Source of the DNA: Dysgonamonadaceae bacterium
GTDB lineage: Bacteria > Bacteroidota > Bacteroidia > Bacteroidales > Azobacteroidaceae
Assembly: GCA_031263685.1 (NCBI GenBank)
Contig: JAISFI010000350.1
Coordinates: forward strand, 1-32,873
Length of the DNA stretch: 32,873 nt
Reading direction: 5' to 3'
The stretch's first letter is position 1. Each line of letters opens with the position of its first letter. Below the pieces are notes generated by a model. It made no database searches. It saw nothing but the letters and a program-made list of their open reading frames with translations, and was not told the origin of the DNA. The translations under genes and the position numbers were made by a program. This document shows, piece by piece, positions 13,855-32,313 of the stretch.

Positions 13855-13897
13855 AAAACGGCGAGGCTCATCTGATAAAGACGAGCCTCGCCGTTTT
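13855..13897 (+). terminator. Intrinsic terminator after the DUF4469 gene
   Basis: A perfect 15-bp stem pairs AAAACGGCGAGGCTC (13855-13869) with GAGCCTCGCCGTTTT (13883-13897) around a 13-nt loop. The T run closing the stem suits rho-independent termination, and the A run on the other side would let it work in both directions. It starts 21 bp after the stop codon. Confidence 0.85.
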
Positions 13898-13905
13898 ATC
13901 GTTGT

Positions 13906-14009
13906 GAGCCTCGATGAATTGATCGTTTGAGCCTCGATGAATTGATCGTTCACCGCCGGTGAATTGATCGTTCACCGCCGGTGAATCGATCGTTCACCGC
14001 CGGTGAATT
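13906..14009. repeat. 22-bp tandem repeat array, about 4.7 units
   Basis: Units start at 13906, 13929, 13951, 13973 and 13995 (partial), with a shared core TGAATTGATCGTT. The first two units begin GAGCCTCGA, the same octamer as the right arm of the terminator just upstream. The later ones begin CACCGCCGG and create perfect hairpins TTCACCG-C-CGGTGAA at each junction. The array fills most of the 308-bp gap before GH105. No ORF here is convincing. The rest of the gap holds an A run near 14055 and the GH105 promoter. Confidence 0.85.
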
Positions 14010-14141: not shown

Positions 14142-15287
14142 ATGAACTTCCCGTATCTATATTTATTCCTGTTTTTCATCGTAGGAGGAAATAACTATTG
14201 CAAGGCAGAAAATCACTTGCTTGAAAAATCATTCATACGGAAAGAATTGAAAAAAGTAGCCGACTGGCAAATCAGTCAATTCCAATATGAAAAAGAAGGA
14301 AGTCCCGGACACCTGCACGATCATGGGATTGATGCATGGACAAACGCCGTTTTATACATGGGTATGGCCGATTGGGCGAAGATTGCGACAAACGATTCTT
14401 CCAACTATTATAACTGGTTGTACAACATTGGAAGAAAAAGCCAATGGAAACTCGCCGAAAATTTCGTCCTCGTTCCTGCCTACAAGCTATATCATGCCGA
14501 TGAATTATGTATCGGACAGTTTTTCCTGGAAATGGGAAAAGTCTTTCGAGATGAGAACCTGATGACGGCCACCCGGGCGCGTGCCGACTGGATCATCGAC
14601 AATCTGCCGCAAGATAGCATCCTTAGCTGCAAAATACACTGGTCGTGGTGCGACGCCTTATTTATGGCGCCGGCTGTTTACTCCCGTCTTTCGGAATGGA
14701 CGCAGGATGATAAGTATCTTGCTTTCATGGATCAATGTTTCAAGCAAACATATCATCAGTTGTACGATAGCGGGGAGTGTCTCTTTTTTCGCGACAAAAG
14801 CTATTTTAACAAAAAGGAGAAAAACGGTCAAAAGATTTTCTGGGGAAGAGGAAACGGTTGGGTCGTAGCCGGGCTGGTCAATATCTTGAAAACCTTGCCG
14901 CCGGAATCTCCTTACCGTCCTTTTTATGAAAATCTTTTCAAAGAAATGCTGGAACGCCTGGTCGCGCTGCAAGACCCTTCGGGATGCTGGCATGCAAGCT
15001 TGCTGGACGCAGCAAGCTATCCGGCGCCCGAAACCAGCGCCTCGGCCTTGATTACCTACGCGCTTGCATTTGGACTCCGGATGCAGTTGTTGCCGGAAGA
15101 AAAATACCGTTCGGCAATGGAAAAAGCGTGGAGCGCTTTGCTCTCTGCCGTCGGCGACCGTGGTAAGTTAGGATGGGTACAGCCTATTGGCGCCGATCCA
15201 AAAAGCGTAACAAAGTATATGACATCTGCTTATGGCGTTGGCGCCTTCTTGATGGCAGGAACTGAAATTTACTTTTTGGTTAATTAG
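14142..15287 (+). CDS. GH105 unsaturated rhamnogalacturonyl/glucuronyl hydrolase
   Basis: The 381-residue protein has a hydrophobic N-terminus (residues 1-18) that should act as a signal peptide. Cys20 could be a lipid site but the lipobox is poor. The body follows the (alpha/alpha)6 barrel of GH105/GH88: HDHGIDAWTNAVLYMG near 59-74, WSWCDALFMAPAVYSRL (167-183) with Asp171 at the position of the catalytic Asp of YteR, and FWGRGNGWVVAGL near 234-246. GH105 enzymes remove the unsaturated uronic acid left at the non-reducing end after a polysaccharide lyase has cut. No lyase is in the window, so this substrate would have to be made elsewhere. The gene stands 83 bp before the M60 peptidase, which has its own possible -7 element. 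Confidence 0.85.
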   Translation: MNFPYLYLFLFFIVGGNNYCKAENHLLEKSFIRKELKKVADWQISQFQYEKEGSPGHLHDHGIDAWTNAVLYMGMADWAKIATNDSSNYYNWLYNIGRKSQWKLAENFVLVPAYKLYHADELCIGQFFLEMGKVFRDENLMTATRARADWIIDNLPQDSILSCKIHWSWCDALFMAPAVYSRLSEWTQDDKYLAFMDQCFKQTYHQLYDSGECLFFRDKSYFNKKEKNGQKIFWGRGNGWVVAGLVNILKTLPPESPYRPFYENLFKEMLERLVALQDPSGCWHASLLDAASYPAPETSASALITYALAFGLRMQLLPEEKYRSAMEKAWSALLSAVGDRGKLGWVQPIGADPKSVTKYMTSAYGVGAFLMAGTEIYFLVN

Positions 15288-15334: not shown

Positions 15335-15342
15335 TATCTTTG
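15335..15342 (+). promoter_or_regulatory. Possible -7 element for the M60 peptidase operon
   Basis: TATCTTTG fits TAnnTTTG and lies 28 bp before the start codon. No TTTG is at the expected upstream spacing; the closest is only 9 nt away. It may be the main start of the seven-gene run that follows, or the operon may be read from the GH105 promoter. Confidence 0.45.
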
Positions 15343-15370: not shown

Positions 15371-17638
15371 ATGAAAAAAATCCTTATTCTTCTGAGTTTC
15401 TTATTATGCTTGTTTCCATCCTTTGTGCAAGCAGTAATTACCACACCTTACCTGACGTCTATTGACTTGAAACAAATCAACAGTGCAGATAAAGAACGGA
15501 CGCGTCTTTGTCAGGGACACCTGAAATTCGATCGTCAGCCTACCGGTTTCTTTGTCGACAGTGGAATGAAGGTCGTTGTAAATGTCGAACTGTTAACGCC
15601 AGCTTTCGATAACGCAATGCCGGTTATATCCATCGGCACCCTGGGTTTCAATGTTCCCTATTCGGGGAAAACAGAAGGACGCTCCAAAACAGACATTACG
15701 TTGAAAGTCGGAACGAATACCATCTCTGCCTCCCAGCATAAAGGCGGATTGATATACCTCAGCTTCGTCACAAACACCGGCAGATCGCCTCAAGGCTTGG
15801 CACGCATCACGTTCACCGAAGAAAGCGGACACGTTCGGGCGCCGCAATACGTTTATGGTCAAACAACCGACGGCGAATTTAAAGAAATGATGGATACCTA
15901 TCAAACGCCCGATGTTGTTTACTATTCCGATTATGCCGTAGTGGTAGCTACCCGTGAATCGGCCACCCAATATTCACGTAATTATAATAAAAAGAATTGG
16001 ATGGATGACATTCATACTTTGCTGGCCAATGAAGATTCCATCAGCGGGCTGGACGATAACGACCCGAATCCGCTGCATCACCGCATGAAGGCCGGAGAAG
16101 TACGTTATCTGCTGGTCGAAAACACCAGCACAAGCCCACATGCCAACAGTGCAGGTTATACCGGTTATCCGTCGGGCAGTCGCCATCGCTATCTTACGGT
16201 ATTTTCGCCAGGCACTGCGGGCGATAACAATTCCTGGATGTTAGGGCATGAAATAGGGCATCAGCATCAACAGCCGGCCTATATGATTCCGTTGTCAGTC
16301 GAGTCGACTGTTAATATTTATTCCTACGTAGAAGAACGATATATGGTCTCATCCACCGGAGAAACCTACAACCGCACTTCGGCCGCCCGCTGGCAAACGG
16401 CTCAAAATACTTATCTGAAATATCCGATCGAAAAACGCATTTACAATATGGACGACAAAACACTGGAAACGCTCATTGGCTTCAACCGCGATGAACTCCG
16501 CTTTATGCCTTGGGAACAATTATTCCTGCTGTTTGGCGACGATTTCTATAAAAACCTGCACCGGGTTGTAAGAGAAGAAAAGGTATCTACCGGCGGCAAC
16601 GACGACGAAAGGCGTTTTTACCTGATATGGAAAGCTTCGCGGGTATCGGGCTACGATTTGCGCGAATTTTTCAACCAATGGGGTATCCGGATCATGACGG
16701 ATAATACGCTCAAGAATAAACTGCAAACCTATTTCGAGAAAGCCTTGACATCGGGCAAAATCGTTGATTTACCGCGACCCATCGGCGAGATCATCGGCAT
16801 CACCGGACAAAAAATGCCGGCATGGGCGCCGTTGACCTTACGCGGAATAACGACCTCGACGCCGGAAAATGAAATCTTAGACCGCACGAACTGGACGATT
16901 ACTACCTCTATTCAAGGCGCTTCCGATGCTGCCATAGGTGGCGACAAACCGGATTATATCATTGATGGAAGTACTGTTACCGCTTTTTCTTTCGTCAAAC
17001 CGGGACGTAGTTATGGCGGCGTCAACGCACCTTCCAGCTATGTACCTTCTTTTACCATTGATATGCAAACGTCCGCCTCATTCAATTTCTTCAAATATCA
17101 ACACCGGAACAGCGGAAATCAGGAAGAAATGTTACGGGCAAGAAAACTCTCTTTCTATGGCAAAAACAGTGAAGCGGACGAATTTCGACCGATCAGGGAA
17201 AACATTGTTATCAACTATTCGGAAAATAAAGACGTCATACAGGTTGAATTTCCGGAAGTTTCCTGTCGCTATGTCCGCGTGGACATCAACGAGTGGAATG
17301 AATCGGGTGGGAACACGGTGCAAGTGGCCGAGTTCGATTTGGGAATCATTCGCCCGGAAATGAATACGAATGTACAACAGCCCCGGGAAAACGCGGAGAA
17401 ATGTGATGTTTACCCGAATCCGATTGTTTCCGGACATCCCTTTTTTGTCCGTGCCGGCGACGGATGGACAGGCGCGAACCTGAACATTTATACAGCTTCG
17501 GGACAAAACGTATGGAAACAGCGGCTTGTTGATACCATGAATGAAATCAACCTCTCCGTTCCGGAAGGTTTCTACTTCTTGCAGATAGAGAAAGACGTTC
17601 GTCGAACAACAAGCAAGTTGCTGGTGACGAAAAGATAA
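15371..17638 (+). CDS. M60-like zinc metallopeptidase with discoidin-like module and T9SS sorting domain
   Basis: The 755-residue protein has a signal peptide (about 1-21). The catalytic part contains HEIGH (293-297) and Glu311, giving HEXXH-13-E, inside the M60 signature HEXXH-X(8-28)-E. M60-like (enhancin-type) peptidases from gut bacteria, such as B. thetaiotaomicron BT4244, cut mucin-type O-glycoproteins. A discoidin/F5-8C-like module follows (about 505-658; NWTITTS ... FVKPGRSY ... RYVRVDINEW). The last 80 or so residues form a type A sorting domain (YPNP at 681-684, FYFLQIEK, ending LLVTKR), which directs export by the type IX system and surface attachment. The gene lies 26 bp before SusC1, so it is very likely co-transcribed with the uptake genes and acts on their substrate outside the cell. 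Confidence 0.88.
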   Translation: MKKILILLSFLLCLFPSFVQAVITTPYLTSIDLKQINSADKERTRLCQGHLKFDRQPTGFFVDSGMKVVVNVELLTPAFDNAMPVISIGTLGFNVPYSGKTEGRSKTDITLKVGTNTISASQHKGGLIYLSFVTNTGRSPQGLARITFTEESGHVRAPQYVYGQTTDGEFKEMMDTYQTPDVVYYSDYAVVVATRESATQYSRNYNKKNWMDDIHTLLANEDSISGLDDNDPNPLHHRMKAGEVRYLLVENTSTSPHANSAGYTGYPSGSRHRYLTVFSPGTAGDNNSWMLGHEIGHQHQQPAYMIPLSVESTVNIYSYVEERYMVSSTGETYNRTSAARWQTAQNTYLKYPIEKRIYNMDDKTLETLIGFNRDELRFMPWEQLFLLFGDDFYKNLHRVVREEKVSTGGNDDERRFYLIWKASRVSGYDLREFFNQWGIRIMTDNTLKNKLQTYFEKALTSGKIVDLPRPIGEIIGITGQKMPAWAPLTLRGITTSTPENEILDRTNWTITTSIQGASDAAIGGDKPDYIIDGSTVTAFSFVKPGRSYGGVNAPSSYVPSFTIDMQTSASFNFFKYQHRNSGNQEEMLRARKLSFYGKNSEADEFRPIRENIVINYSENKDVIQVEFPEVSCRYVRVDINEWNESGGNTVQVAEFDLGIIRPEMNTNVQQPRENAEKCDVYPNPIVSGHPFFVRAGDGWTGANLNIYTASGQNVWKQRLVDTMNEINLSVPEGFYFLQIEKDVRRTTSKLLVTKR

Positions 17639-17664
17639 TTGAAAAGAATCTTAAGAAAATTCAC

Positions 17665-20559
17665 ATGAAACATTTAATTTACACGAGACATTTAATTTAC
17701 AGGAAATGCAGGGCAATCCATACTGCCGCTTTCTTTCGCTTCTCTGCGATGACAGTGGCGCTGCTTCTTTCGGCATGGAATCTGCCTGCTCAAAAACTGC
17801 CGGTGTTATTGGGGGAACAGGACTCCATTACGCGTATACAATCGATATCTGCCGTTTCGGGCGACCGGTTGTTGCACCGCCCCACCTTCCAGATGGAAGG
17901 ATTTTTAGACGGCACATTGCCGGGTTTGTACGTAAACATGACGCAGGGATACACCACCAATCAAGCCTCTTTGCTTATGCGCAGACGCACCCTTTTGATT
18001 GTTGTAGACGGTATTCCCCGTTCGGACGCCAATATACCGGCCAGCCAGATAGAAACGCTTTCCATCATCAAAGACGGCTTGGGTTTAGCTGCCTGGGGAA
18101 TGTCGAGCGGCGACGGCGTTTTGTATATCAAAACCAAACGGGGTGATGTATCCGGGATGAAAATAGATTTTACCGCTCAGGTATCGAATGCTTCGCAGAT
18201 ATTTCGCCCCAAGTTTCTGGATGCCTACAGTTACGCGTCCCTGTTAAATCAGGCGCTAATCAATGACGGTGGCGTTCCGCTTTATACGGAAGATGATTTG
18301 ACGCTCTATCAAAACGGAAAGAATCCATATACACATCCCAATGTAGACTGGTATGATGTCCTGATGCGCAACAATGCGCCCATTCAGCAATATAACCTGA
18401 ATCTGTCCGGAGGAACTGTGGATGCACAATATTTTATCGACTTGAATGTTTTCGACCAGCAGGGCTTTCTGAAACAGGATAAATCGCTCAATGCCTACGA
18501 TACGCGCGAAAACTTCAAGAAATATTCCCTGCGTACCAACGTCGACATCCGTATCACCGACAGGACGCTTTTCCACGTCAATGTTTTCGGACAGATGTTC
18601 CGCGAAAACACGCCGGGTAAAACCATGATGGGAGATATTTATAAGGCTTTACACACGACCCCAAATAATGCTTATCCCATTAGAAACCTGCCGGCCGACG
18701 TCAACGGCTTCGGCGTCATGGAAGAAACATACGGCGGAAATATCAATTACACGAACAACCTGTACGCACAGTCACTCGAATCGGGATATACCATGTATCC
18801 GAAAACCGATTTCAATTTCGACCTGATATTGGAGCATCAATTCTCCAACTCGCTGAAAGGCTTATACGTAAAAGGCCTGTATTCTTATAATTCTTCCTAT
18901 CGCGAAAACATGAAGCGTACCAAAGGTTACGATATCTGGGAATACAGCAGGCCGGATAATGCCGATCCTGCCATACCGGAGAATGATCCGCGCTATTACA
19001 CCAAAAGACTGTCGGCAGCAACACCGGCCAATGCTACCGAATACAGTCGCGTGAATCGTTTGCAATATTTAGAATTGTCTACCGGCTATCATTTTGCTAT
19101 TGGGAAGAGTCATTCCAATACGAAATTAAGCTATTGGTCGAACGAATATGTGTTAAAAAGCGAAAATTTGCCGATGTATAAGGAAGGCTTCAATATCCAT
19201 TCGGAATACGATTTCGACAAACGCTACCTGGCGGAAGTGAGCCTCTCGACGATGCGCTTGAATTTTCTGAAGCCAGGACAGCAATGGGGTTTCTTTCCGG
19301 CAGCCGGTTTGGGTTGGAATATCGCTGCCGAAGATTTCTTCCCGGCGTCTGCGGTCAATGTCTTGAAACTGCGCACGACTTATGGATTAAACGGTAACGA
19401 TGGTACCGGCTACTTTTTTAGAAGCGGCACTGGAAACATGACCGACTATTATTTTACTTATATCAAGAGATATAAAGATGGCTCTAATGTTACCCTCGGA
19501 CAAACGGCTGCCGGCCTGAAAACCCTGGTCGAATCCGGATTGCCTTTCGTTTCGCAATGGGAAAAAAGCAAGCGCTGGGTTGTTGGCCTGGACATGGAAA
19601 CTGCCGATAAAACGCTAAGCGCCACGCTGGAGTACTTCAACAATCATCATTTTGATATACTGCAAGTCAACAGTTCTAAAAACAACAACGGTTTAATAGG
19701 TATCGATTCACCGAAAGAAAATATCGGCGCTTATCGTCTGCAAGGTGTTGAAGTGGATGTCGCCTACGGCAAACAATTCGGGAATTTCTCGCTGCAAACC
19801 CAGGCACATGCTACTTTTTATTACAGTGAAGTATTGGCAAACGGCGAGCCTGTCTTCCCCGAATCTTATATGCAACGGGTAGGAGCGCGGCACGGCGCTA
19901 CATTCGGTTATGTGGCCGACGGCCTTTTCCAGACGAACGAAGAGATTGCCGATTATCTGCAACACTATACCGTAGACGGATATATTCCGCAACCGGGCGA
20001 TTTGAAATATCAGGACCTAAATGGCGATTACATCATCGACGGCCGTGATATTCGGGAAATCACCACACGGGCGCCACGTATCGAATACGGTCTTTACCTG
20101 TCTGCCGGCTGGAAAGGCTTGGAGTTGTCCATGCAATGGTCTGGCTTGGCAAACAGCGAAAACATCATCAATGATTTGCCTTTCGCCATCAATGCATCGG
20201 ATGCTTACGGACAGGCTTGGGAAGATCACTTGGATTACTGGCGACCCGATAATCCTCAGGCAAGCTATCCGAGGGTATCTGCTTCCGGAAATTCCTATAA
20301 TGAGAGAACCTCTACTTTCTGGCTGAAAAACACTGGATACCTGCGCTTGAAGAACGTCGAATTATCTTATTCCCTGCCTGCCAAATGGGTATCGGCCATA
20401 CATCTGTCCGGTGTTAAGTTCTTTGTTGGCGCATACAACGTATTGACGCTGTCGTCCTTGAAAGATCGCGATCCGGAACTGATTAATTACTCCAATGACA
20501 CCTCCGGCATTGCACCTAATATCAAGGCCTATAATTTCGGTTTGAATGTTCAATTTTAA
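17665..20559 (+). CDS. SusC/RagA-like TonB-linked outer-membrane protein, lacking the N-terminal extension (SusC1)
   Basis: This 964-residue protein has a long N-terminus with a hydrophobic core (about 29-42, ending PAQ). The plug begins almost at once (SAVSGDRLLHRP, about residue 64; DGTLPGLYV; VVDGIPRS; ending VLYIKTKRG near 160). The usual carboxypeptidase-regulatory-like domain and a clear TonB box are missing, and the plug motif normally reading like IRG is LLMRR. The remainder is a 22-strand-type barrel with typical SusC elements (YSLPAKWV, then YNVLTLSSLKDRDPE near the end). The partner SusD1 starts 13 bp later. It may move substrate with a changed TonB link or act as an accessory pore. 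The start is uncertain: the DNA repeat ATTTAATTTACA occurs twice at the first codons, and Met29 is an alternative. Confidence 0.85.
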   Translation: MKHLIYTRHLIYRKCRAIHTAAFFRFSAMTVALLLSAWNLPAQKLPVLLGEQDSITRIQSISAVSGDRLLHRPTFQMEGFLDGTLPGLYVNMTQGYTTNQASLLMRRRTLLIVVDGIPRSDANIPASQIETLSIIKDGLGLAAWGMSSGDGVLYIKTKRGDVSGMKIDFTAQVSNASQIFRPKFLDAYSYASLLNQALINDGGVPLYTEDDLTLYQNGKNPYTHPNVDWYDVLMRNNAPIQQYNLNLSGGTVDAQYFIDLNVFDQQGFLKQDKSLNAYDTRENFKKYSLRTNVDIRITDRTLFHVNVFGQMFRENTPGKTMMGDIYKALHTTPNNAYPIRNLPADVNGFGVMEETYGGNINYTNNLYAQSLESGYTMYPKTDFNFDLILEHQFSNSLKGLYVKGLYSYNSSYRENMKRTKGYDIWEYSRPDNADPAIPENDPRYYTKRLSAATPANATEYSRVNRLQYLELSTGYHFAIGKSHSNTKLSYWSNEYVLKSENLPMYKEGFNIHSEYDFDKRYLAEVSLSTMRLNFLKPGQQWGFFPAAGLGWNIAAEDFFPASAVNVLKLRTTYGLNGNDGTGYFFRSGTGNMTDYYFTYIKRYKDGSNVTLGQTAAGLKTLVESGLPFVSQWEKSKRWVVGLDMETADKTLSATLEYFNNHHFDILQVNSSKNNNGLIGIDSPKENIGAYRLQGVEVDVAYGKQFGNFSLQTQAHATFYYSEVLANGEPVFPESYMQRVGARHGATFGYVADGLFQTNEEIADYLQHYTVDGYIPQPGDLKYQDLNGDYIIDGRDIREITTRAPRIEYGLYLSAGWKGLELSMQWSGLANSENIINDLPFAINASDAYGQAWEDHLDYWRPDNPQASYPRVSASGNSYNERTSTFWLKNTGYLRLKNVELSYSLPAKWVSAIHLSGVKFFVGAYNVLTLSSLKDRDPELINYSNDTSGIAPNIKAYNFGLNVQF

Positions 20560-20572
20560 ATATCAACGCAAC

Positions 20573-22393
20573 ATGAAATATCCGCTTACAAATATAATGT
20601 GCCGTTTGCCGTTCATCCTTGCCTGTAGCCTGCTTTTCTTTTTTCCGGCATGTTACAACTTCGAGACAGAACCTTATGAATGGAATTCGGAAGATAAAGT
20701 GTTGAGTCTGCAAGATTCGACTGAGAATAGCGCTATCAAGAAACTGTTTTACGCAACGTATTTGGATTTGCCTTTGTTGCATATCCGTTTACAATCTTCC
20801 AGCAGTTACCTGGATGCCGCTACCGACGACGGTGTGCCTACCAAAAGCGTTGGTGGCAACGGCAGTCTGGATAATTACCGTAACGGTTTGTTATCGCCGG
20901 GCAACATCGCCGATTTGGATGGCGATGCTTGGGACAGGAATTATAGTGGTATCCGCCGCGTCAATCTTTTTCTGGAAAAGATACAACTCTTTCCAGCCTC
21001 TACTCAGTTGCCTGTCGAGAGAATCGTTCGCATGAAGGCGGAAGCCCGACTGCTACGCGCTTACTACTACTTTGAACTGATGAAACGCTGGGGAGGCGTT
21101 CCAATGCTGGGCGACCAGGTATTGGATGTAAACAGCGATGTGCATATTCCCCGCAGTACGATCGACGAAGTCTCGAATTACATCATCAGCGAAATCAGCC
21201 CCGATGTAACGGCCTGTCCGAATAGCTGTTTCCCCGATTTGCACGCAGCGCAGTCTACGGCTTCGGAAGACCCGACCGAGATCGGACACGTTAACCAGGG
21301 GGTCGCTTTGGCCTTACTTTCCCGCCTGAAGCTCTACCTGGCAAGTCCTCTGTATAATCCATCCAACAATCCCGACAAATGGCGCGATGCGGCAAATGCT
21401 GCCGATACGCTGATTAAATTGGGTGTATATGAGTTGTATACAGGCGCCGACATGACCAAATTATTCGCCATGAATGCCAGTGACTTTCCTCACAAGGAAA
21501 TGATTATGATCAAGGAGATGGGCAGCAACTCTGCCATAGAACAGAAGAATAGTCCCTCCGGATATACTTATGGTACAGCTTCCGGTGCGCAGAGCACTGT
21601 TCGTTCGGAAGGAGCAACCAGTCCCAGTCAAAATCTGGTAGACGCATTTCTCATGATCGACGGCAGATCTATCTTTGTAGATTACGATCCGGAAAAAGGA
21701 ATAGATCCGTCTGTCAATTATAATCCGCAAAATCCCTATACCAATCGGGATCCGCGTTTGGCGCGTACCGTTTTTCACCACAACCAGCGATGGTTGAAAA
21801 GGATGATAGAAGTTTACGATGGCGGACAAGACAGGGGAGCCGTTAAAGGCGCTGTTTACACGCAAACCGGCTATTACTTGAGAAAGTTCCTGGGCGATAA
21901 TACGAGTACCGAATCTTATACAGCGCTTTATCATCATTACCAGATTTTCCGCTACGCCGAAATACTCTTGAATTATGCGGAAGCCGTCAATGAATATGAT
22001 CCGGGCAATGACGCCGAGATCACAAAAGGTTTGATTGCCCTGCGGAAACGGGCAGGTATCCGTGCCGGTGCAGATGCACGTTACGGATTGCCCGCTACTT
22101 ACACGCAAGACTTGATGCGCCGGATTATCCGCAACGAACGCCGGATTGAACTGGCTTTTGAAGACCATCGCTTCTGGGACATCCGCCGCTGGAAAATCTG
22201 CGATGAAGGCGATGCCGTGATGACGAAACCGGTCAGAGGCGTACGCATTACGCGCGATGGCACGAGGTTTACCTACGATTATGTTGATGTACGCAACTCC
22301 CGTTTTGCGTCGCACATGTACTGGTATCCGATTCCCCGTTCGGAAATGCAAGGCAATACCAATCTGGTACAAAATCCGGGTTGGAATTATTAA
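20573..22393 (+). CDS. SusD/RagB-like surface lipoprotein (SusD1)
   Basis: I start at 20573, which gives 606 residues with a proper lipoprotein signal (Cys27 in FFFPAC). An in-frame ATG at 20546 would add nine residues and overlap SusC1. SusD proteins cap the SusC barrel and bind glycans or peptides at the surface. Family hallmarks are clear: KAEARLLRAYYYFELMKRWGGVPM near 160-185, the helical TPR-like body, YAEILLNYAEAVNEYDPG near 460, and RRIIRNERRIELAFEDHRFWDIRRWK near 520-545. The C-terminus QNPGWNY is typical. It forms a pair with SusC1 (13 bp apart) and is followed by SusC2 after 21 bp. Confidence 0.93.
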   Translation: MKYPLTNIMCRLPFILACSLLFFFPACYNFETEPYEWNSEDKVLSLQDSTENSAIKKLFYATYLDLPLLHIRLQSSSSYLDAATDDGVPTKSVGGNGSLDNYRNGLLSPGNIADLDGDAWDRNYSGIRRVNLFLEKIQLFPASTQLPVERIVRMKAEARLLRAYYYFELMKRWGGVPMLGDQVLDVNSDVHIPRSTIDEVSNYIISEISPDVTACPNSCFPDLHAAQSTASEDPTEIGHVNQGVALALLSRLKLYLASPLYNPSNNPDKWRDAANAADTLIKLGVYELYTGADMTKLFAMNASDFPHKEMIMIKEMGSNSAIEQKNSPSGYTYGTASGAQSTVRSEGATSPSQNLVDAFLMIDGRSIFVDYDPEKGIDPSVNYNPQNPYTNRDPRLARTVFHHNQRWLKRMIEVYDGGQDRGAVKGAVYTQTGYYLRKFLGDNTSTESYTALYHHYQIFRYAEILLNYAEAVNEYDPGNDAEITKGLIALRKRAGIRAGADARYGLPATYTQDLMRRIIRNERRIELAFEDHRFWDIRRWKICDEGDAVMTKPVRGVRITRDGTRFTYDYVDVRNSRFASHMYWYPIPRSEMQGNTNLVQNPGWNY

Positions 22394-22414
22394 TCAAACT
22401 AATCTCATCCTAAT

Positions 22415-25400
22415 ATGAAACAGACAGATTATTCATACATATATTATCGTTTACTGTTCATCGTCCTCGTACTGTTCGTTCCTTTTTTCCTGCAAGCGCA
22501 AACGCTGGTGAAAGGTGTTGTGGTTGACGACGAAAATGAACCGCTTATCGGCGCTTCCGTCATCGAAGACGGTTATCCTGCCAATGGGACTGTTACCGGC
22601 CTTGATGGAAATTTCAGCTTGAAACTGAATGCCTCCCAATCGAGCGTCAAGATACAGTACCTGGGTTATAAAACCGTGACAGTGACTCCTCCAGCAAGCG
22701 GAGAGATGCGCGTTGTCTTATTTCCCGACGAGCGGGTGTTGCAGGAAGTAGAAGTTGTGCAGGTTGGTTTCGGATCGAAATCGCGTATTTCGAATGTTGC
22801 CGCTATCAGTCAAATCAATGCCGCGCAAATCCGGCAGATACCCACTACGTCCATTCAAAACGCTTTGGCGGGACGTTTGCCCGGCTTGTTCCATTTGCAG
22901 GGAAGCGGTCGTCCGGGAGAAGATGCGGCAAAAATATTTATCCGGGGTATCGGTACCTTTGCCGACGTGGAACACACGCCGCTGGTACTGATCGACGATG
23001 TGGAATCGGATATAGAAACGCTTTCGCGCCTTTCGGGCAATGAAATAGAAGAAGTTTCTATCCTCAAAGACGCCGGCAGTACCTCCATCTTCGGTATCAA
23101 AGGCGCCGACGGGGTTATCCTGATCACTACCCGCCGCGGAAAGGCTGGAAAACCCAAGCTTACGTTCCACGCAAACTTCGGATTGCAGCGACCGACGTAT
23201 AAAAATGAGTTTCTCAATTCTTACGAAAGTTTATCCCTGCTCAAAGAACTTCACCTGAACAACGGAAATGAAGCAGCCCTGCAGCAGGAACGCTATTTCA
23301 GCGACACAGCCCTGGAACATTACCGCCTGGGCGACGATCCTTACCGTTATCCCGATGTTAACTGGTATGACTTGTTGTATAAAAAGTTTTCGCTTATGCA
23401 GCAATATACTGCCGACATACAGGGCGGATCGGAAAAAGTGAATTATTTCGTTTCCTTTGCTTATCTGGATCAGGGTGGCTTATTCAAAGATTTGGATAAA
23501 CCGGAAGATTTTAATAATGATTATTATCAGCGTCGTTACAACCTTCGTTCCAATATTGATGTCAAGATAACCAAAGATTTCCTGATGAAGTTAAGCGCCA
23601 ATGCTATTCTGGCAGAGATTAACGAGCCGAATTTGCCTGCTACGCGTGGTAGCGATATCAATATCTTCAGACGCATACTGGGCGCCGGTATCGCATCTTA
23701 TCACTATCCGGCCTATAATCCGGATAATTCTTTCGGCGGATACACGGGAACGTATATCAACCCGCTGGCATTGATGACCTATGGCGGTTATAAACGGAAA
23801 TTCGACAATAATCTGAACGGTAATCTTATGTTGGAACATCAGTTGGATTTTATAACCAAAGGATTGAAAGTGCGGGGCGTGCTGGGGCTGACCAATACTT
23901 GGGGTTTTAACCGGAACCTGACGCGGAGCGAAGTGCTGGATTATTATTACGAGCCGGAAAAACAAACTTATACGCCGGTAATTACCAACCAGTATATGCT
24001 GCCGCTACTGGAAGTGGCTTCCACCGGTATTACGCCGGTGATACAAATCAATACCCGTTTCGATTTGTCTTACAGTCGCCGGTTTGGGGCGCACGCTTTC
24101 GATGCCCTGCTCCTGGGCAACTGGTACACCCGCCGTTCGGGTAAAGATAATCAGCGGAACTCGATCAATTATTCGGGACGTATCGGCTATAACTACGACG
24201 CCCGGTACATTGTTGAATTTAGTACGGCCTACAACGGATCGGACGAGTTTACCAAAGATAACCGCTTTGATTATTTCCCGGCGCTAAGCTTGGGTTGGAA
24301 CCTGGCAGAGGAGCCTTATATGGGAGATTTCTTCCGGAGAATTAAAATCGACATGCTCAAGTTGAGAGGATCTTACGGTTTGAGCGGATCCGATAAAATT
24401 GCCGGCAGCAATTACGCTTATCAGGAAGCTTACGGACGGATCATGGACTATTATTTCGGAGAAACACCTGCCAAAATGGTTGCATTGGGATTGTGGCAAT
24501 ATCCGAATCCGGATATGAAATGGGAATCCGATAGAAAGACAGATGCCGGTATCGACCTCCGCATGTTCAACAACCGCCTTTCGGCCACTGTGGACTATTT
24601 TTACAATAAACGGACAGATATTCTGGCGCAGCGGGCAGGAATTGTGTACTATGCAGGTTTCCTGAATGTCTTTGCCGATAAAAACAACACCGGGTCGGCC
24701 ACCAAAATAACCATACTTCCGCCCTCCAACATTGGTCGTACCGAAAACAGTGGCTGGGATGGCGAGGTTTCGTGGCGCGATAAGTTTAGTGATAACTTCT
24801 CGTATTTTGCACGCGGCACCTTTTCCTTTGCGAGAAATAAAATTCTGTATATGGACGAAGCGCCCAGCGAATACAAGCTGAGTATGCAAACCGGACGTCC
24901 TATTGGAACTATCTTCGGATTTGTTGCCGACGGTTTCTATGATTCTTACGAAGAAATAGCGAACAGTCCCTACGATGCCAACGGACGCGATATACAGCCG
25001 GGCGACTTGAAGTACAAAGACATCAGTGGGCCGAACGATGCGCCCGACGGTATCATCAATGAATACGATAAAGTCGCTATCGGAAATAAGCGACCCGATT
25101 TCATCTACGGCTTTTCATTGGGATTTTCGTACGGGGATTTCGATTTCTCCACCCTCTTTCAGGGAGCCACCGGCGCTTCGGTCAGCATAGAGGAAATGTT
25201 GCGGCTGGCCGACGGTTCCAACTCCATTGTAGGTAGCTCCAACGGTAAGCCGATGCCGATTCATCAGGGACGGTGGACGTATTATGACGACCTCGGCAAC
25301 AAAGTCTCCGCCCCGGAACAGTTGATGAGCATGAACAGCGACGCTACTTATCCGCGACTGCTGCCCGGAAACAATAAGAACAACGCTCAATCGACGTTCT

Positions 25401-25642
25401 GGTTACGATCGGCCAACTATGTGCGCTGGAAAAGCATCGAAGTAGGTTATAATCTGCCTCAAAAATGGCTAAATAAAGCTGGCGTAAGCAATATCCGTTT
25501 CTACTTTACCGCCCATAACCTGTTTACCTGGTCGGGATTGAAAGAGTATCAAATAGACCCCGAAAGTTCTCTGGAAGATAATCCACTGGCTACCTATCCG
25601 CAACAGCAGGTGTATAACTTTGGCTGTCATATCTCATTTTAA
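22415..25642 (+). CDS. SusC/RagA TonB-linked outer-membrane transporter (SusC2)
   Basis: The 1075-residue protein has the complete SusC layout. The signal peptide ends near residue 29 (FFLQAQ). A carboxypeptidase-regulatory-like domain follows (about 32-110; VKGVVVDDENEPLIGASV, then QYLGYKTVTV). The TonB-box region (LQEVEVVQVGFGS, about 108-121) and the plug come next (SIQNALAGRLPGL, KIFIRGIGTF, VSILKDAGSTSIFG, GVILITTRRG at about 232-241). A large barrel ends with YNLPQKWLNKAGV and NFGCHISF. It imports bulky nutrients across the outer membrane using TonB energy, with SusD2 (18 bp downstream) as its lid. Compared with SusC1 it keeps all parts needed for normal function, so it is probably the main transporter of the locus. 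Confidence 0.95.
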   Translation: MKQTDYSYIYYRLLFIVLVLFVPFFLQAQTLVKGVVVDDENEPLIGASVIEDGYPANGTVTGLDGNFSLKLNASQSSVKIQYLGYKTVTVTPPASGEMRVVLFPDERVLQEVEVVQVGFGSKSRISNVAAISQINAAQIRQIPTTSIQNALAGRLPGLFHLQGSGRPGEDAAKIFIRGIGTFADVEHTPLVLIDDVESDIETLSRLSGNEIEEVSILKDAGSTSIFGIKGADGVILITTRRGKAGKPKLTFHANFGLQRPTYKNEFLNSYESLSLLKELHLNNGNEAALQQERYFSDTALEHYRLGDDPYRYPDVNWYDLLYKKFSLMQQYTADIQGGSEKVNYFVSFAYLDQGGLFKDLDKPEDFNNDYYQRRYNLRSNIDVKITKDFLMKLSANAILAEINEPNLPATRGSDINIFRRILGAGIASYHYPAYNPDNSFGGYTGTYINPLALMTYGGYKRKFDNNLNGNLMLEHQLDFITKGLKVRGVLGLTNTWGFNRNLTRSEVLDYYYEPEKQTYTPVITNQYMLPLLEVASTGITPVIQINTRFDLSYSRRFGAHAFDALLLGNWYTRRSGKDNQRNSINYSGRIGYNYDARYIVEFSTAYNGSDEFTKDNRFDYFPALSLGWNLAEEPYMGDFFRRIKIDMLKLRGSYGLSGSDKIAGSNYAYQEAYGRIMDYYFGETPAKMVALGLWQYPNPDMKWESDRKTDAGIDLRMFNNRLSATVDYFYNKRTDILAQRAGIVYYAGFLNVFADKNNTGSATKITILPPSNIGRTENSGWDGEVSWRDKFSDNFSYFARGTFSFARNKILYMDEAPSEYKLSMQTGRPIGTIFGFVADGFYDSYEEIANSPYDANGRDIQPGDLKYKDISGPNDAPDGIINEYDKVAIGNKRPDFIYGFSLGFSYGDFDFSTLFQGATGASVSIEEMLRLADGSNSIVGSSNGKPMPIHQGRWTYYDDLGNKVSAPEQLMSMNSDATYPRLLPGNNKNNAQSTFWLRSANYVRWKSIEVGYNLPQKWLNKAGVSNIRFYFTAHNLFTWSGLKEYQIDPESSLEDNPLATYPQQQVYNFGCHISF

Positions 25643-25660
25643 CAATAAAAACTCAATCTT

Positions 25661-27541
25661 ATGAAACACTCATATCATATATACAGACAGATTACTTCTC
25701 TTTTCCTGTTTATTTTTATGCTCTTCGGCGCCGCCTGTACGGAAACGTCCGAAGGTTTTCTGGAAAACAAGCAGGAAACGGAAACGCTGAAAGATATATT
25801 TTCCGACAGTTTGAAAACCATGCAGTTTCAGGCGGCTATCTATTGGAAGATTCCGGCCGTCGTTATGGGGCCGCAAGACCCGCGTTATTATCTTCAGTCG
25901 TTTTATGATTACGATTCGGCAACCGACAACGGACGGGAAAGCAGTACCGACCGCAAAAACTTTGCCGTCGCCTTTTCTAAAGCCGATTTTACGCAAGACG
26001 GTATCAATGCAAACTTCGAGAACTTTTTGCGTCCGTGGGTAGAAATGTACCAAAACATCCGCGTGTGTAACCAGTTTCTTGAAAACGTTTCCATAGCGCC
26101 GCTCTCGTCGACCAAGAAACAGGTACTGGAAGCTGAAACCCGCTTCTTGCGTGCTTTCTACTATTTTCATCTTTTACGCAACTGGGGTGGAATACCGCTG
26201 GTGGGCGACCGGATGCTGGATCCTTTTGTAGATCACGGTATCCCGCGGGCTACCTTTGAAACCACGGTGCAGTATATTGCCGATGAGTTTCATTATGCCA
26301 AAGACAATCTTCCTAAGATACAGGCTGGAAACGATTATGGACGTCCAACGAAAGGCGCTGCACTGGCCATGCTGGCAAAGCTTTATTGCTATGTAGCCAG
26401 TCCTTTATACAATGGGGGAAATGTCGGTACCGGCGAAAACCGCTTGCTGGTGGGGTATGACGACTATCAGCGCAGCCGCTGGGAAACAGCCAAAGCCGCC
26501 CTGGATTCTTTTTTCCTCTATAACCAGTCGGAAGGATTGTACGCCCTGCGCGTGCCCGAAGGAGACGATGATACGAAACCGGGCTATGGCTTTTATCTGG
26601 CCACCACTTCGCGGGTGAGCCGTGAACGCATCTGGATGTGGATTACCTACAACGGACATACCTGGCCGCACGAACAGTTGTTGCCCGCCTCGCGTACCGG
26701 ATTGGCCAAGGTAATGCCCTATCATGACTTGACGGAGGCTTTCCCTACCGATGATGGCGTGGATATTCGCGTGCGCAACGCCAATGGCGAATACAAAACC
26801 GTGCCGAATGAGTATAACGAAAATAACCGCCGTTACGACCGGTCACGCCCGTATGCCAACCGCGACCCGCGTTTTTACTACACTTTCCTCTACAATGATG
26901 CGAAGTGGGCGAAGTCGAAAGGCGAAACGCCCCAGCCGGTTTATACCTATCGCGGGGCTGCTTCGGACGGCATTTTTACCGGATCGACTTCTACCGGTTA
27001 TTATTTCGTAAAATTGTGCGTCGAAAATGTCACAGGAAAAGAAAGCGGAACAAGCGCCAGCGGGCAGGGAGAGGCTTTTATCCGTTACGCAGATATGTTG
27101 CTGATGTATGCCGAAGTATTGACGGAACTGGATGTAAACGCTTACCGCAGTGAGATAGAAGATCAAATCTTTCAAATCCGGCAGCGTGCAGGAATCACTC
27201 CGGGCAGCGATAACCGCTACGGTGTGCCGCAAAACATGAATCGGGAAGAAATGATCGCTTTTATCATCAATGAACGCAGAATAGAATTTGTGCTGGAAGC
27301 CGGCAACCGTTTTTGGGACTTGAAACGGCGCAAACTGTTCGAGAAGTTGAATAACGAATGGATGCACGCCGCCGTCTGGGAAAAAGCCGGTGATGATGAT
27401 GCGGGCAATCCGATTTTTGTTTGGTCTGTTCAAGCGTTGGAACAACATTTCTTCAACGTTCCGCGCATGTATCATTTTCCGATTCCATTGAAAGAGTATG
27501 AATCTTCGCACGGATCGTTGACACAGAATCCGGGATGGTAA
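25661..27541 (+). CDS. SusD/RagB-like surface lipoprotein (SusD2)
   Basis: The 626-residue protein has a lipoprotein signal (FMLFGAAC, lipid Cys26). SusD hallmarks are present: EAETRFLRAFYYFHLLRNWGG near 156-178, KGAALAMLAKLYCYVASPLYN near 230-250, YADMLLMYAEVLTELD near 475, and IINERRIEFVLEAGNRFWDLKRR near 535-557. It ends HGSLTQNPGW. It should cap SusC2 and bind the imported material. The differences from SusD1 in the middle region suggest a different ligand. The next gene starts 15 bp later. Confidence 0.93.
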   Translation: MKHSYHIYRQITSLFLFIFMLFGAACTETSEGFLENKQETETLKDIFSDSLKTMQFQAAIYWKIPAVVMGPQDPRYYLQSFYDYDSATDNGRESSTDRKNFAVAFSKADFTQDGINANFENFLRPWVEMYQNIRVCNQFLENVSIAPLSSTKKQVLEAETRFLRAFYYFHLLRNWGGIPLVGDRMLDPFVDHGIPRATFETTVQYIADEFHYAKDNLPKIQAGNDYGRPTKGAALAMLAKLYCYVASPLYNGGNVGTGENRLLVGYDDYQRSRWETAKAALDSFFLYNQSEGLYALRVPEGDDDTKPGYGFYLATTSRVSRERIWMWITYNGHTWPHEQLLPASRTGLAKVMPYHDLTEAFPTDDGVDIRVRNANGEYKTVPNEYNENNRRYDRSRPYANRDPRFYYTFLYNDAKWAKSKGETPQPVYTYRGAASDGIFTGSTSTGYYFVKLCVENVTGKESGTSASGQGEAFIRYADMLLMYAEVLTELDVNAYRSEIEDQIFQIRQRAGITPGSDNRYGVPQNMNREEMIAFIINERRIEFVLEAGNRFWDLKRRKLFEKLNNEWMHAAVWEKAGDDDAGNPIFVWSVQALEQHFFNVPRMYHFPIPLKEYESSHGSLTQNPGW

Positions 27542-27556
27542 TTAAACAACACAATC

Positions 27557-29032
27557 ATGTATACAATGAAATTAAAGTTAATGAAATTAATGTCAGAGAG
27601 ATTAATATTAAAAATAGCCTGCTGCTGCGGCCTTGCATTGCTTTGGAACGCCTGTCGGGAGGAATACTATACAGTGAATGATTCGTTTTACGACGATAAG
27701 GCGATTGAAGTGAAAAACCCCCTGATAGACGATACCCTGCGCATAGAACTTTACAATACAGACCTGATATCCATACAGGAGGTATCCCGTCCGGATATTG
27801 TATTCGATCCGAGAGCTTTTATTTATCAGGTAGAATACGACAGTATTCTGTCGGTTTCCGACGAAGGAGAAATCCAGCCGCAAAATAGAGGTGTTACGAA
27901 AATTTCGATTATCTTCCGTGCCAACGCCGCTATCGCCACTTCGATGGTAGTGGAAGTACATAAAGACTATCATGCGGTAGAACGCTTGCAAGTGCCTTCT
28001 GCTGTGTCCGGATTATTGGTAGAACAGGATTATACGCTGAATCTGAGTCCGTATATTATTGTATATCCGAGTTATGCCGACAATAAACAACTGCACTTCA
28101 GTCTGGATGCCGCTTCCCAAGCGTTTGCTTCCATTAGCGAAGACGGTGTGATCACCGGTATTGCACCCGGTCCGATTACTGTCCATGTTGTTTCCGACGA
28201 TAATCCGCAGGTGACTGCCGACGCACTGTTGAACGTGATTACTGAAATTGAAATTACCGACATAAAACTTCATGCCCAACTGGATAATATAACTTTAGGC
28301 CTGGACGAACAAATTGACCTGAATGTATTGACTTCGGTCACACCAGCCAATGTGAATGAGGTAAACAGGAGGCTGCACTTTGCCTTGACCGATGGTGCGG
28401 ATGCTGTTAGCCTGACCGACGGATTGCTTACCGCCGTCGGCGCCGGCGTGGCTCATCTGACGGTTTCCAGTAAGAATAATATCACCAAAACATTTACAAT
28501 CCATGTAGATGCGGCTAAAAAGGATTTGACCCGTGCATTCTGGACGGTAACAACTTCGGCTTCTTATTCAACGGGCTTGAATTACGTGGTGGACGGCACT
28601 ACCGGAAAACCGGAAGATATGTTTGATGACAACCCCGCTACCTTCCTTTCATTGGTGAAGTCCGGGAAAACCTATAATAATTCGGCCGGTCCGGCCTCCG
28701 GTGGATACAATCATTTTATTGTAGATATGAGAGTATCCTGCACGTTTAGCGCGATTAGATGGAATCACCGATCGGGCAATTCTTACAACTATTTGAGGAT
28801 TTGGGGGATTGATTTGGAAGGAAGTCCTGACGGCGAGAACTGGAGTATCATTCAACAGTCGGTTGCGATACCAATTAAAGAAGGAGCAGACGCCACCCGT
28901 TATGAAATCCCGTTGAACGCCGAACATACATATCGTTACGTAAAGGTAACGCTGACGCAATGGAGTGACAATTCCGGTGGATCTACCAGCGGAAGTACGA
29001 TGCAAATCGGAGAATTTGGATTGATTCGCTGA
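27557..29032 (+). CDS. Surface lipoprotein with Ig-like repeats and a discoidin-like domain
   Basis: The 491-residue protein carries a lipoprotein signal (LALLWNAC, Cys33). The start is unclear because ATGs at 27557, 27566, 27581 and 27590 are all in frame and keep the signal. Three Ig-like (BIG2-type) segments follow (about 55-135, 140-228, 233-318), each with a hydrophobic strand before a glycine turn (DEGEIQPQNRG, EDGVITGIAPG, TDGLLTAVGAG). A discoidin/F5-8C-like module ends the chain (about 325-491). It is placed as the surface glycan-binding protein normally found after susD. The end module looks homologous to the one in the M60 peptidase of the same locus. The ligand is unknown. Confidence 0.78.
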   Translation: MYTMKLKLMKLMSERLILKIACCCGLALLWNACREEYYTVNDSFYDDKAIEVKNPLIDDTLRIELYNTDLISIQEVSRPDIVFDPRAFIYQVEYDSILSVSDEGEIQPQNRGVTKISIIFRANAAIATSMVVEVHKDYHAVERLQVPSAVSGLLVEQDYTLNLSPYIIVYPSYADNKQLHFSLDAASQAFASISEDGVITGIAPGPITVHVVSDDNPQVTADALLNVITEIEITDIKLHAQLDNITLGLDEQIDLNVLTSVTPANVNEVNRRLHFALTDGADAVSLTDGLLTAVGAGVAHLTVSSKNNITKTFTIHVDAAKKDLTRAFWTVTTSASYSTGLNYVVDGTTGKPEDMFDDNPATFLSLVKSGKTYNNSAGPASGGYNHFIVDMRVSCTFSAIRWNHRSGNSYNYLRIWGIDLEGSPDGENWSIIQQSVAIPIKEGADATRYEIPLNAEHTYRYVKVTLTQWSDNSGGSTSGSTMQIGEFGLIR

Positions 29033-29136: not shown

Positions 29137-29311
29137 ATGTTACGTAAAAAAACATTGATAAACACGATGGTTGTACATGTGCATGTGCCACGGCAGCACA
29201 CGTGCATGTGCCACGGTAGCACACGTGCATGTGCCACGGCAGCACACGTGCATGTGCCGCGACAGCACACGTGCATGTGCCGCGACCGTGCAGGATGCTC
29301 TTGCGTAACAT
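29137..29311. repeat. Inverted repeat bracketing the 23-bp tandem array
   Basis: ATGTTACGTAA (29137-29147) and TTGCGTAACAT (29301-29311) are reverse complements except for one base. Together they enclose 153 bp that consists mainly of the tandem array. ATGAAGAG also occurs outside both arms in direct orientation (29126-29133, 29314-29321). The bracketed segment could be a small non-coding mobile unit, but no transposase gene is nearby. Confidence 0.55.
29176..29290. repeat. 23-bp tandem repeat array, five copies
   Basis: GCATGTGC occurs at 29181, 29204, 29227, 29250 and 29273, a constant 23-bp period. The unit is approximately CACGTGCATGTGCCACGGCAG, and the last two copies change CACGG to CGCGA. 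Each full unit contains a hairpin GCACA-CGTGCA-TGTGC. Since 23 is not a multiple of 3 and both strands are open, the reading frames across it are by-products of the repeat. It occupies most of the 332-bp gap before the beta-helix gene. Confidence 0.9.
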
Positions 29312-29364: not shown

Positions 29365-32313
29365 ATGAAAAAGTTATTCTTATTTTTATTGAGCATTATC
29401 CTTTCATTAGGATATGCCGGTGCACAAACCCGTTATTATGTGAACGGACAGACTGGAAGTAATTATGGACAGGGTGTATCGTGGGGTGATGCCTTTGCAG
29501 AGCTTACAACGGCTTATGATATGGCTGTTGCTGGCGATGAAATTTGGATTGCCGGAGGCGAATATGATGGTATCTACACAATCATAGATGGGGTAAATAT
29601 TTACGGCAGTTTTGCCGGTACGGAAACCTCTATCGATGAACGTGAAAAAGTAACGGACGGCGAAGCTTGGGAATTTGCTCATCCTACGGTGTTGACCAGT
29701 AGCTCCGGTGGATATATTTTTACTACATCCGCAGCAGGAACCAGTATTTTTGACGGTCTTACACTAAAAGGCACCGAAGGTGTTACCTCCGGCAATAAAG
29801 GTTTTAATATTGCGAATGGAGGTAATAATAAAGGATACACCATTCGGAATTGCATCATTCGGGATTTCAATTCAGCGCATGATGGCGGTGGTCTGAATAT
29901 CCGGGCGAAAACCGAAATTGCAAACTGTTTGATCACCAATAATACAGCGAACAAAGGTGGTGGCGCTTATTTGGATTGTACAACGATACACCATTGTAAA
30001 ATTACCAACAACAGCGCAGCTACCACTGCCTCAGAGCCTCTAAACAGTGGCGTCGGTGGTGGCGGTGGTCTGTTGATGGCCAATACAGCGCCCGGTTGTG
30101 TCGCTTATAATTGCTGGATAGAAAGGAATACGGCTTCTTTTGGCGGAGGACTTGTGGTTCGCGCCGGCTCAAAAGCCTACAATTGTATTATTGTCAATAA
30201 CACAGCCAGTCAATCGGGCGGAGGCCTTGCCTTCGACCAGCGAGATAATGGAGGTGCGGTTTTCAATGTAACGATAGCAAATAACACCGCTCAACACATC
30301 GATGGTTCCGGAGGTATCTGTTTTTCTGCCGACGCTGCCAACCGGAAACAGGATGTCTACAATTCCATCCTTTACAAGAACAAGAATGGATCCGGAGAGG
30401 TGATCAATCTCGGTATCTTTTTGTCGAAAGCAGAAGCTTCCACGAATCATTATTTCATGAATAATATCCTTGACGACCCGGAAAATTATTTGTTATTTAT
30501 TGATGAAAGCTGTATTAATGAGTCGAATGGGACGAATTTGTTTGAAGATGAAGTAAGCTACGTTACAAAACCCGGATTCCCCGGCCAAAATAAAGGGCTT
30601 GTTACTACCGACCTGCCGGCCGAAGATATAACTGGAAAAGCTCGTGTAATAAAAAATATAGTGGATATAGGCCCGTATGAAATGGAAGAAAAAGAACAGG
30701 TTATTCTCCCCAATAGTCAAGGCGTTATTTTTGTCGACCTGAACACAACAGTTAGCGATGACCCGTATGTAATCGAAGAAATCGGCTCCACATGGGCTAC
30801 GGCGGTTGCTTCTTTTGCTACAGCCTTGAGCGGTGCGTTGAAATATCAGGCGGAAAACCCGGAAGCAAGCTTGCAATTGTGGTTTAAAGCCGGTACTTAC
30901 GAAAATATCTCCATCGAACTGAAAGATGGCATTTCGCTTTATGGTGGATTCGCCGGCACGGAAACCACTCTTGCCGAACGTACCAAAGGGAATAAACCCT
31001 GGATTTATACCCATGAAACTGTTTTACAAGGCGTTGGCAGAGATCGTACTGCCGGAAGCGACTTGATCTCGTCTACTGCGGTATTGAAACAGGCAGCCGA
31101 ATTTACTTCTCCGGTAGTTATAGACGGATTTACGATTACCAATGGCGAGCATGGTGTAAGTTTCATTAGCGGAGGGAATACAACGCTTTGTAACTCTATT
31201 ATCAGAGAAAACGGTAATGCGGATGCTACAACGACAAGCAGTACGGGTGCTACCGGTATCGATGGCGGCGGTATTGCTATCCGTGGCGGAACATTCGTGG
31301 TTAAAGACTGTTTGATAGAAAATAACCGTGCTAAAAACGGTGGTGGTATCATCATCGCGAATGATGCTCCTTCTCTTGTAGAAAGATGTACGATACGGGA
31401 TAATAAAGCGCTGACAACTATCTCCGGAGATGGTGTAATGTATAACTTTATAGAATCCAGCACCTCTGTTTTCGGTTGGGGTGGCGGCGTCTTCAATCAG
31501 GGCGGCGCTGTTAACAACTGTTTGATTGAGGGTAACGAATCTTTTGCCGGTGGCGGAATCCTCGTTCGTGACGACCTGTCTCAATACAATAACTGTATTA
31601 TTGTCAACAATAAAGCGATCTTTGGCGGTGGCGTCGGATATGATTCTCGCGGCGGGAACGTATCTGCCAATGCCGGTATATACAATGCATTGATAGCTGA
31701 TAATATGGTACTGCCTGCATCGTACTATGCCGACTATCTGACAAATGGCGCTGTTCCGGAAACAACGGCCGGATTGTGCGCAGGCGCTTATTTTACTTCT
31801 CAGGGACAAGTGATCTATAACTCCATCTTTACAGGAAATAAAGATGCAAATCAAACTATTTCCATCACTCATGCTTTGCATGATTATGATGCCTCGTTGA
31901 AGTATGCTATCGTGGATGATGAACAGATCTCCCTGAGTGATGGTACGCTGGATGTATCTCCGTCGTCAATTACTTACGATGCCGACTGGAGAATCACATC
32001 TACCGGTTTCCCCGGACGCAATGCTGGGTATGGCGGAGATGAGATGACAGGCGGAAATCCGACAACAACGGATTATGCCGGTAACGTCAGGGTACATGAA
32101 GGATCCATAGATATAGGTCCTTATGAAATAGACGCTCCTTCGCAGTCTTCTATCAATCGTCCAACCGACGATGTACAGGGAACAGTCATTGACGTTCGCT
32201 ATTATAACTTGCAAGGTATCGAAATTGCTGAACCTGTTCGCGGTGAAATTTATATCGAAAAGAAAATATATGATACGAGAGAGGTTGTGATAGGGAAACG
32301 GTTGAAGAACTGA
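29365..32313 (+). CDS. Large secreted right-handed parallel beta-helix protein, internally duplicated
   Basis: The 982-residue protein has a signal peptide ending near residue 20 (GYAGAQ). It is made of two related halves. Each starts with a YVN/FVD segment and SWGDAF or STWATA, then GSFAGTET (about 81-88) or GGFAGTET (about 527-534), runs through short repeats such as NCLITNNTANKGGG, and closes with DIGPYE (about 434-439 and 916-921). This is the pattern of pectate-lyase-like beta-helix surface proteins with no obvious catalytic residues. The last 40 residues (YYNLQGIEI, then GEIYIEKK) resemble the end of a type A sorting domain without its YPNP strand. It could bind or cut a polysaccharide, or serve as an adhesin. 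It lies after the SusCD operon but behind the repeat array, so it may be transcribed separately. Confidence 0.75.
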   Translation: MKKLFLFLLSIILSLGYAGAQTRYYVNGQTGSNYGQGVSWGDAFAELTTAYDMAVAGDEIWIAGGEYDGIYTIIDGVNIYGSFAGTETSIDEREKVTDGEAWEFAHPTVLTSSSGGYIFTTSAAGTSIFDGLTLKGTEGVTSGNKGFNIANGGNNKGYTIRNCIIRDFNSAHDGGGLNIRAKTEIANCLITNNTANKGGGAYLDCTTIHHCKITNNSAATTASEPLNSGVGGGGGLLMANTAPGCVAYNCWIERNTASFGGGLVVRAGSKAYNCIIVNNTASQSGGGLAFDQRDNGGAVFNVTIANNTAQHIDGSGGICFSADAANRKQDVYNSILYKNKNGSGEVINLGIFLSKAEASTNHYFMNNILDDPENYLLFIDESCINESNGTNLFEDEVSYVTKPGFPGQNKGLVTTDLPAEDITGKARVIKNIVDIGPYEMEEKEQVILPNSQGVIFVDLNTTVSDDPYVIEEIGSTWATAVASFATALSGALKYQAENPEASLQLWFKAGTYENISIELKDGISLYGGFAGTETTLAERTKGNKPWIYTHETVLQGVGRDRTAGSDLISSTAVLKQAAEFTSPVVIDGFTITNGEHGVSFISGGNTTLCNSIIRENGNADATTTSSTGATGIDGGGIAIRGGTFVVKDCLIENNRAKNGGGIIIANDAPSLVERCTIRDNKALTTISGDGVMYNFIESSTSVFGWGGGVFNQGGAVNNCLIEGNESFAGGGILVRDDLSQYNNCIIVNNKAIFGGGVGYDSRGGNVSANAGIYNALIADNMVLPASYYADYLTNGAVPETTAGLCAGAYFTSQGQVIYNSIFTGNKDANQTISITHALHDYDASLKYAIVDDEQISLSDGTLDVSPSSITYDADWRITSTGFPGRNAGYGGDEMTGGNPTTTDYAGNVRVHEGSIDIGPYEIDAPSQSSINRPTDDVQGTVIDVRYYNLQGIEIAEPVRGEIYIEKKIYDTREVVIGKRLKN

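Follow-up and report, generated by a model that had tools for sequence, protein, structure and literature searches.

An M60 peptidase gene joined to tandem SusCD pairs in a Dysgonamonadaceae bacterium: a probable glycoprotein uptake locus with an extension-less SusC

Introduction

In the locus BT4240-50 of Bacteroides thetaiotaomicron, an M60 peptidase and a lipoprotein share Gal/GalNAc specificity through CBM32 domains, and the uptake of glycopeptides by SusCD has been proposed as a model (PMC11992087). Tandem susC/D pairs form a second described class, which accounts for 1028 of 30,951 loci (about 3%); the proteins at each position form congruent clades, and it was suggested that mixed complexes of tandem SusCD are conceivable (PMC6499787). 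For the SusC protein BT1763, growth was lost on deletion of the N-terminal extension even though the protein was produced, and the TonB box was likewise required (PMC7782687).

In the locus described here, a mucin-type peptidase with an export tail and a tandem of importers belong to a single conserved unit. The window, that is, the whole stretch of 32,873 nucleotides that was analysed, is one complete contig (C172) of a draft genome (4.0 Mb, 446 contigs, 92.9% complete, 6.3% contaminated) from a family that includes genomes of only 1.0-1.2 Mb. This gut-type Bacteroidales cluster probably cuts glycoproteins extracellularly and imports the pieces via two linked outer-membrane pumps.

Organisation of the locus

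According to the original prediction, six genes packed at 13-26 bp occupy positions 15371-29032; all six open reading frames were found there, uninterrupted and on one strand (plus), and the 26 bp spacing between the M60 and SusC1 genes was confirmed. In order, they encode the M60 peptidase (15371-17638, 755 aa), SusC1 (17665-20559, 964 aa), the lipoprotein SusD1 (20546-22393, PF07980 187.9 bits), SusC2 (22415-25642, 1075 aa), the lipoprotein SusD2 (25661-27541, PF07980 153.5 bits) and a surface lipoprotein with Big_2 and F5/8C domains (27557-29032), by its domain matches a probable glycan-binding protein. With SusD1 starting at ATG 20573, the likelier start, the gaps amount to 26, 13, 21, 18 and 15 bp; from the first ATG (20546) SusD1 would overlap SusC1 by 14 bases.

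The six core genes stand, and the boundary had been drawn too narrowly. A GH88/GH105-type unsaturated uronyl hydrolase of 381 aa with an N-terminal signal-like segment (14142-15287, plus strand, PF07470 272.8 bits) is encoded 83 bp upstream of the M60 gene, and a choice-of-anchor-Q right-handed beta-helix protein with a sorting-tail-like C terminus (29365-32313, plus strand, NF041518 25.8 bits at a cut-off of 25) is encoded 332 bp downstream of the lipoprotein gene; both are counted as part of the locus because related genomes keep them 5-15 bp from core genes.

With adjacent susC and susD genes and degradative enzymes on one strand, the arrangement is that of a PUL. No regulator of the hybrid two-component or ECF/anti-sigma kind, common in PULs and not required, was found among the window genes searched; in genome G005, a hybrid two-component protein adjoins the tandem SusCD. 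A correctly spaced Bacteroidales promoter was looked for upstream of the M60 gene and not found; a weak promoter-like box TAnnTTTG (15335-15342, plus strand), without a correctly spaced TTTG, lies 28 bp upstream of the start. Sigma-70-like promoters were discarded as candidates, since their frequency was not above chance.

The spacer that separates the lipoprotein gene from the beta-helix gene contains, at 29175-29281, 4.7 copies of a 23-bp repeat (ACACGTGCATGTGCCACGGCAGC) that is unique within the genome; its interpretation as a folded element was rejected, since it folded more poorly than shuffled sequences. Another array at the locus border, a tandem repeat of about 22 bp (TGAATTGATCGTTCACCGCCGG), is located directly upstream of the GH105 gene (13883-14009). 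At the far end of the window (53-4463), genes for a holin, a large phage-tail-like protein (phrog_15074, 624 bits) and DUF5675, together with a small ORF, end immediately before tRNA-Ser (cga), an arrangement that resembles one end of a prophage integrated at this tRNA gene.

The peptidase and its export

The M60 peptidase consists of an M60-like N domain, a catalytic domain (residues 153-438), an F5/8C domain (523-647) and a T9SS tail (680-752). The catalytic domain was matched by PF13402 with 128.4 bits (cut-off 25.8) and carries the zinc motif HEIGH...E, which has the form expected of M60 (HExxH and a downstream Glu); the motif HEIGHQHQQPAYMIPLSVESTVNIYS is closely kept in this protein and in the eight orthologues inspected. 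The relation to solved structures of the BT4244 type is only a distant one (about 30 bits), and relatives occur in Bacteroidales draft genomes and in Maribellus. The C terminus was matched by TIGR04183 with 33.3 bits (cut-off 23), PF18962 being slightly under its cut-off (26.2, cut-off 27), and the T9SS machinery is encoded in the same genome (SprA 2825 bits, PorU 1023 bits). A C-terminal sorting domain combined with genomic secretion machinery is what defines type A T9SS cargo, and the predicted export of the peptidase by this system is supported accordingly.

At about 30% identity, the F5/8C domain of the peptidase is a relative of the one in the lipoprotein. The F5/8C profile gave no match among solved structures from which ligand residues or a CBM32 identity could be read.

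Six further M60 domains of this genome are found on contigs C331, C194, C30, C434, C247 and C340; those on C331 and C247 are near SusC genes, and the one on C331 is adjoined by a gene for a ricin-type lectin. The M60 protein of genome G013 (L026:11010-13193) ends not in a TIGR04183 tail but in a tail (YYNLQGIEI...) like that of the beta-helix protein in the window (32190-32313), which suggests that sorting tails may be interchangeable between proteins.

Conservation of the gene order

The prediction that the peptidase and the transporters form one unit was borne out by other genomes. G062 has the full order of the window (GH105, M60, SusC1, SusD1, SusC2, SusD2, lipoprotein, beta-helix protein), with 15 bp between the lipoprotein gene and the gene for the beta-helix protein, a 54% orthologue. 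The order is nearly the same in G063, where the beta-helix gene is 5 bp upstream of the M60 gene, and in G050, where the GH105 orthologue is 14 bp upstream of SusC1 and the M60 gene is downstream of the lipoprotein and beta-helix genes. The arrangement goes beyond chance, the gene order being kept in other genomes at about 51-68% protein identity; the core proteins of these three genomes are about 47-68% identical to those of the window.

The SusC1 type is rare: it was found in 5 of 48 genomes within the family, and 393 sampled genomes of the order (two best candidates scored per genome) yielded it only in G303 besides the window's own genome. In G303, which belongs to another family, a non-orthologous M60 gene (25% identical at the protein level) is located 47 bp upstream of the SusC1 orthologue, and its product has a lipoprotein-like signal in place of the T9SS tail. 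Two different M60 genes at the same place provide the best evidence for a working link, and on these comparisons the peptidase-transporter link, which recurs in G062, G063, G050 and G303, is judged to be real.

Orthologues of the M60 peptidase (50-64% identity) also occur elsewhere, namely in G013, G005, G007, G001, G041, G045, G049, a second locus of G050, and Maribellus. Where the neighbours could be read, most are beside unrelated single SusCD pairs, usually together with a related F5/8C lipoprotein, so peptidase and lipoprotein seem to move together, as a module, from one transporter type to another. An alpha-L-fucosidase is encoded in four of these loci and a GH105 enzyme in two (G050 and G045).

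A SusC without the N-terminal extension

Both SusC proteins belong to the family of barrel and plug proteins described by TIGR04056 (cut-off 368): SusC1 scored 536 bits (535.7, from model position 86) and SusC2 843 bits. The N-terminal extension PF13715, which SusC proteins are said to carry, is present in SusC2, a canonical SusC with a TonB-box-like EVEVV, and absent from SusC1 and its orthologues; no Pfam domain was matched in SusC1. The TonB-box segment of SusC1 is degenerate (VLLGEQ where others have EVVVVGYG). A statement that SusC1 has no TonB box was softened, since several relatives retain a VAYG-like segment and the box is short and variable. The structural model of SusC1 (pLDDT 78.8) has the barrel and plug architecture seen in levan SusC and RagA (TM 0.71-0.76), and the protein therefore looks like a working transporter.

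In the window's own genome, all three complete SusCs without the extension are in tight tandems, and among 45 SusCs with the extension only the three partners are (Fisher p 0.001), the SusC count being that of the scored candidates (56 of 94); the remaining matches without an N terminus sit at contig ends, as judged from coordinates or by direct check. The two further tandem SusCD loci of this genome, with one extension-less SusC each, are L065 (C362) and L066 (C217).

Across genomes, 15 of the 17 extension-less SusCs that were compared with their flanks read are in tandem with a complete SusC-SusD pair. The SusC of C217, one of these 15, contains an internal in-frame stop (TAG) and may be decaying. 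In G303, the contig edge is too near to tell whether there is a partner, and in G284 (L089, C225; a 65% complete genome) the order is SusD, extension-less SusC, SusD with no complete SusC, which leaves one exception. In a phylogenetic tree, all 17 are on one side of a single branch (support 99/95; 98% of bootstrap trees). The distances of the two SusCs correlate with r 0.90 over the 15 tandem pairs and 0.84 for ten that are less closely related; 5000 shuffles gave nothing as high, and shared species history contributes to this correlation. Because sampling followed similarity to SusC1, extension-less SusCs of other kinds could be missed; a profile of extension-less SusCs detected further members in other families. 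The count of extension-less SusCs rests on the window's own genome and this profile search, the broad SusC survey covering best matches only. The pairing of an extension-less SusC with a complete partner appears to be a simple regularity, and no report of it was found in the literature searched.

SusC1 is proposed to depend on SusC2, perhaps within a single complex. More tentatively, and with the complete proposal judged somewhat unlikely, the extension-less SusCs would be an old class that has lost the extension and works only with the adjoining complete SusC, for example in a mixed SusC1D1-SusC2D2 complex where the extension of the partner is used by both pairs; in this locus, such an assembly would import glycopeptides released by the surface M60 peptidase.

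Substrate and proposed mechanism

The locus probably serves glycoprotein utilisation in the manner of BT4240-50, with tandem SusCD pairs instead of a single one. The T9SS would place the M60 peptidase, and probably also the beta-helix protein, on the cell surface, where the F5/8C domains of peptidase and lipoprotein would hold the same glycosylated substrate. The catalytic domain would cut the backbone next to short O-glycans, the glycopeptides would enter via SusC1D1 and SusC2D2, acting together as one co-inherited unit, and the GH105 enzyme would remove terminal unsaturated uronic acid in the periplasm. Uptake of glycoprotein or glycopeptide, as originally predicted, remains the best guess because the closest described system is the O-glycoprotein locus of B. 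thetaiotaomicron (PMC11992087). BT4240-50 follows the same logic, and M60 loci elsewhere contain unrelated single SusCD pairs and a related F5/8C lipoprotein, four of them with the fucosidase. Counting against this assignment are the distance of the M60 domain from the BT4244-type structures and genome G005, in which an orthologous tandem (about 40% identical) has no M60 gene beside it in the stretch read; the GH105 enzyme and the lack of O-glycan glycosidases in the locus are easier to reconcile with an acidic glycan of plants or algae than with animal mucin.

This last point leads to a reading as a locus for a uronic-acid polysaccharide or arabinogalactan protein, in which the beta-helix protein would be a lyase, the GH105 enzyme would act on its unsaturated product and the M60 peptidase would only trim attached protein. 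The nearest solved structures to the GH105 enzyme, assigned by similarity, are the ulvan enzyme 4ce7 (E 7e-59) and 5noa (E 1.5e-41), which we take to be the arabinogalactan enzyme BACCELL_00875. The M60 loci of G050 and G045 retain a GH105 gene as well, and the host family looks like a plant-fed insect-gut one, which is indirect evidence. The model of the beta-helix protein loosely resembles PL6 and PL9 folds, but the TM-scores (0.15-0.49) and the model confidence (65) are too low for a proven lyase, no Pfam lyase family was matched in this protein, and the locus contains no other plant-glycan enzyme; this reading is held to be unlikely. The similarity of the GH105 enzyme to enzymes that remove unsaturated uronic acids points to an acidic glycan. 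To our knowledge, such a glycan is absent from animal mucin cores, so that, within the preferred reading of a glycoprotein locus, a plant arabinogalactan protein or similar acidic glycoprotein is a possible substrate.

Two other alternatives concern the genes as a group. In a genome with seven M60 domains in total and dozens of SusC genes, an M60 gene might merely happen to precede an unrelated tandem SusCD; conserved adjacency, including the non-orthologous M60 gene at the same place in another family, makes such chance neighbours very improbable. The two SusCD pairs might also be independent importers of different products, and the original prediction had derived from the small number of enzymes a possible split in which the two transporters serve protein and glycan separately. 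Only about 27% identity between SusC1 and SusC2, and a separate SusD for each, would suit independence. Their lineages are, however, co-inherited with correlated distances in loci with different neighbours, and SusC1 is devoid of the extension without which growth was lost in the case of BT1763; independent import is considered quite unlikely. The proposed split is not supported: tandem SusCDs are a described class with differing gene contents (PMC6499787), and a relative of the window's M60 peptidase was present in none of nine tandem-type loci read from other genera.

Comparison with known systems

With BT4240-50 (PMC11992087), the locus shares the combination of an M60 peptidase, an F5/8C-type lipoprotein (CBM32 in BT4240-50) and SusCD, and the related, putatively glycan-binding domains on peptidase and lipoprotein. 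It differs in that the SusCD of BT4240-50 is single, its M60 peptidase is a lipoprotein rather than T9SS cargo, its GH2, GH109 and sugar kinase are absent from the window locus, and it contains no GH105 enzyme or beta-helix protein. The RagAB system of Porphyromonas gingivalis is similar as a SusC/D-type complex that imports peptides in a T9SS bacterium, and differs as a single pair. RagA, to which the SusC1 model aligned with TM 0.68-0.73, carries the N-terminal extension, unlike SusC1. With the tandem class (PMC6499787), including the xylan system xusABCD (PMC7848910), the locus shares two directly adjacent pairs in the order C1-D1-C2-D2 on one strand and co-inherited clades by position; it differs by its M60 peptidase and by one SusC without the extension, the main text on that class being silent on the N-terminal region.

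Glycoprotein PULs and tandem SusCDs are thus each known in kind, and their combination and the extension-less SusC1 appear to be new. A natural class of SusCs without the extension, nearly always beside a complete SusC, offers a route to learn what the extension does and a way to ask whether tandem SusCD pairs form the mixed complexes that were only suggested for the tandem class (PMC6499787).
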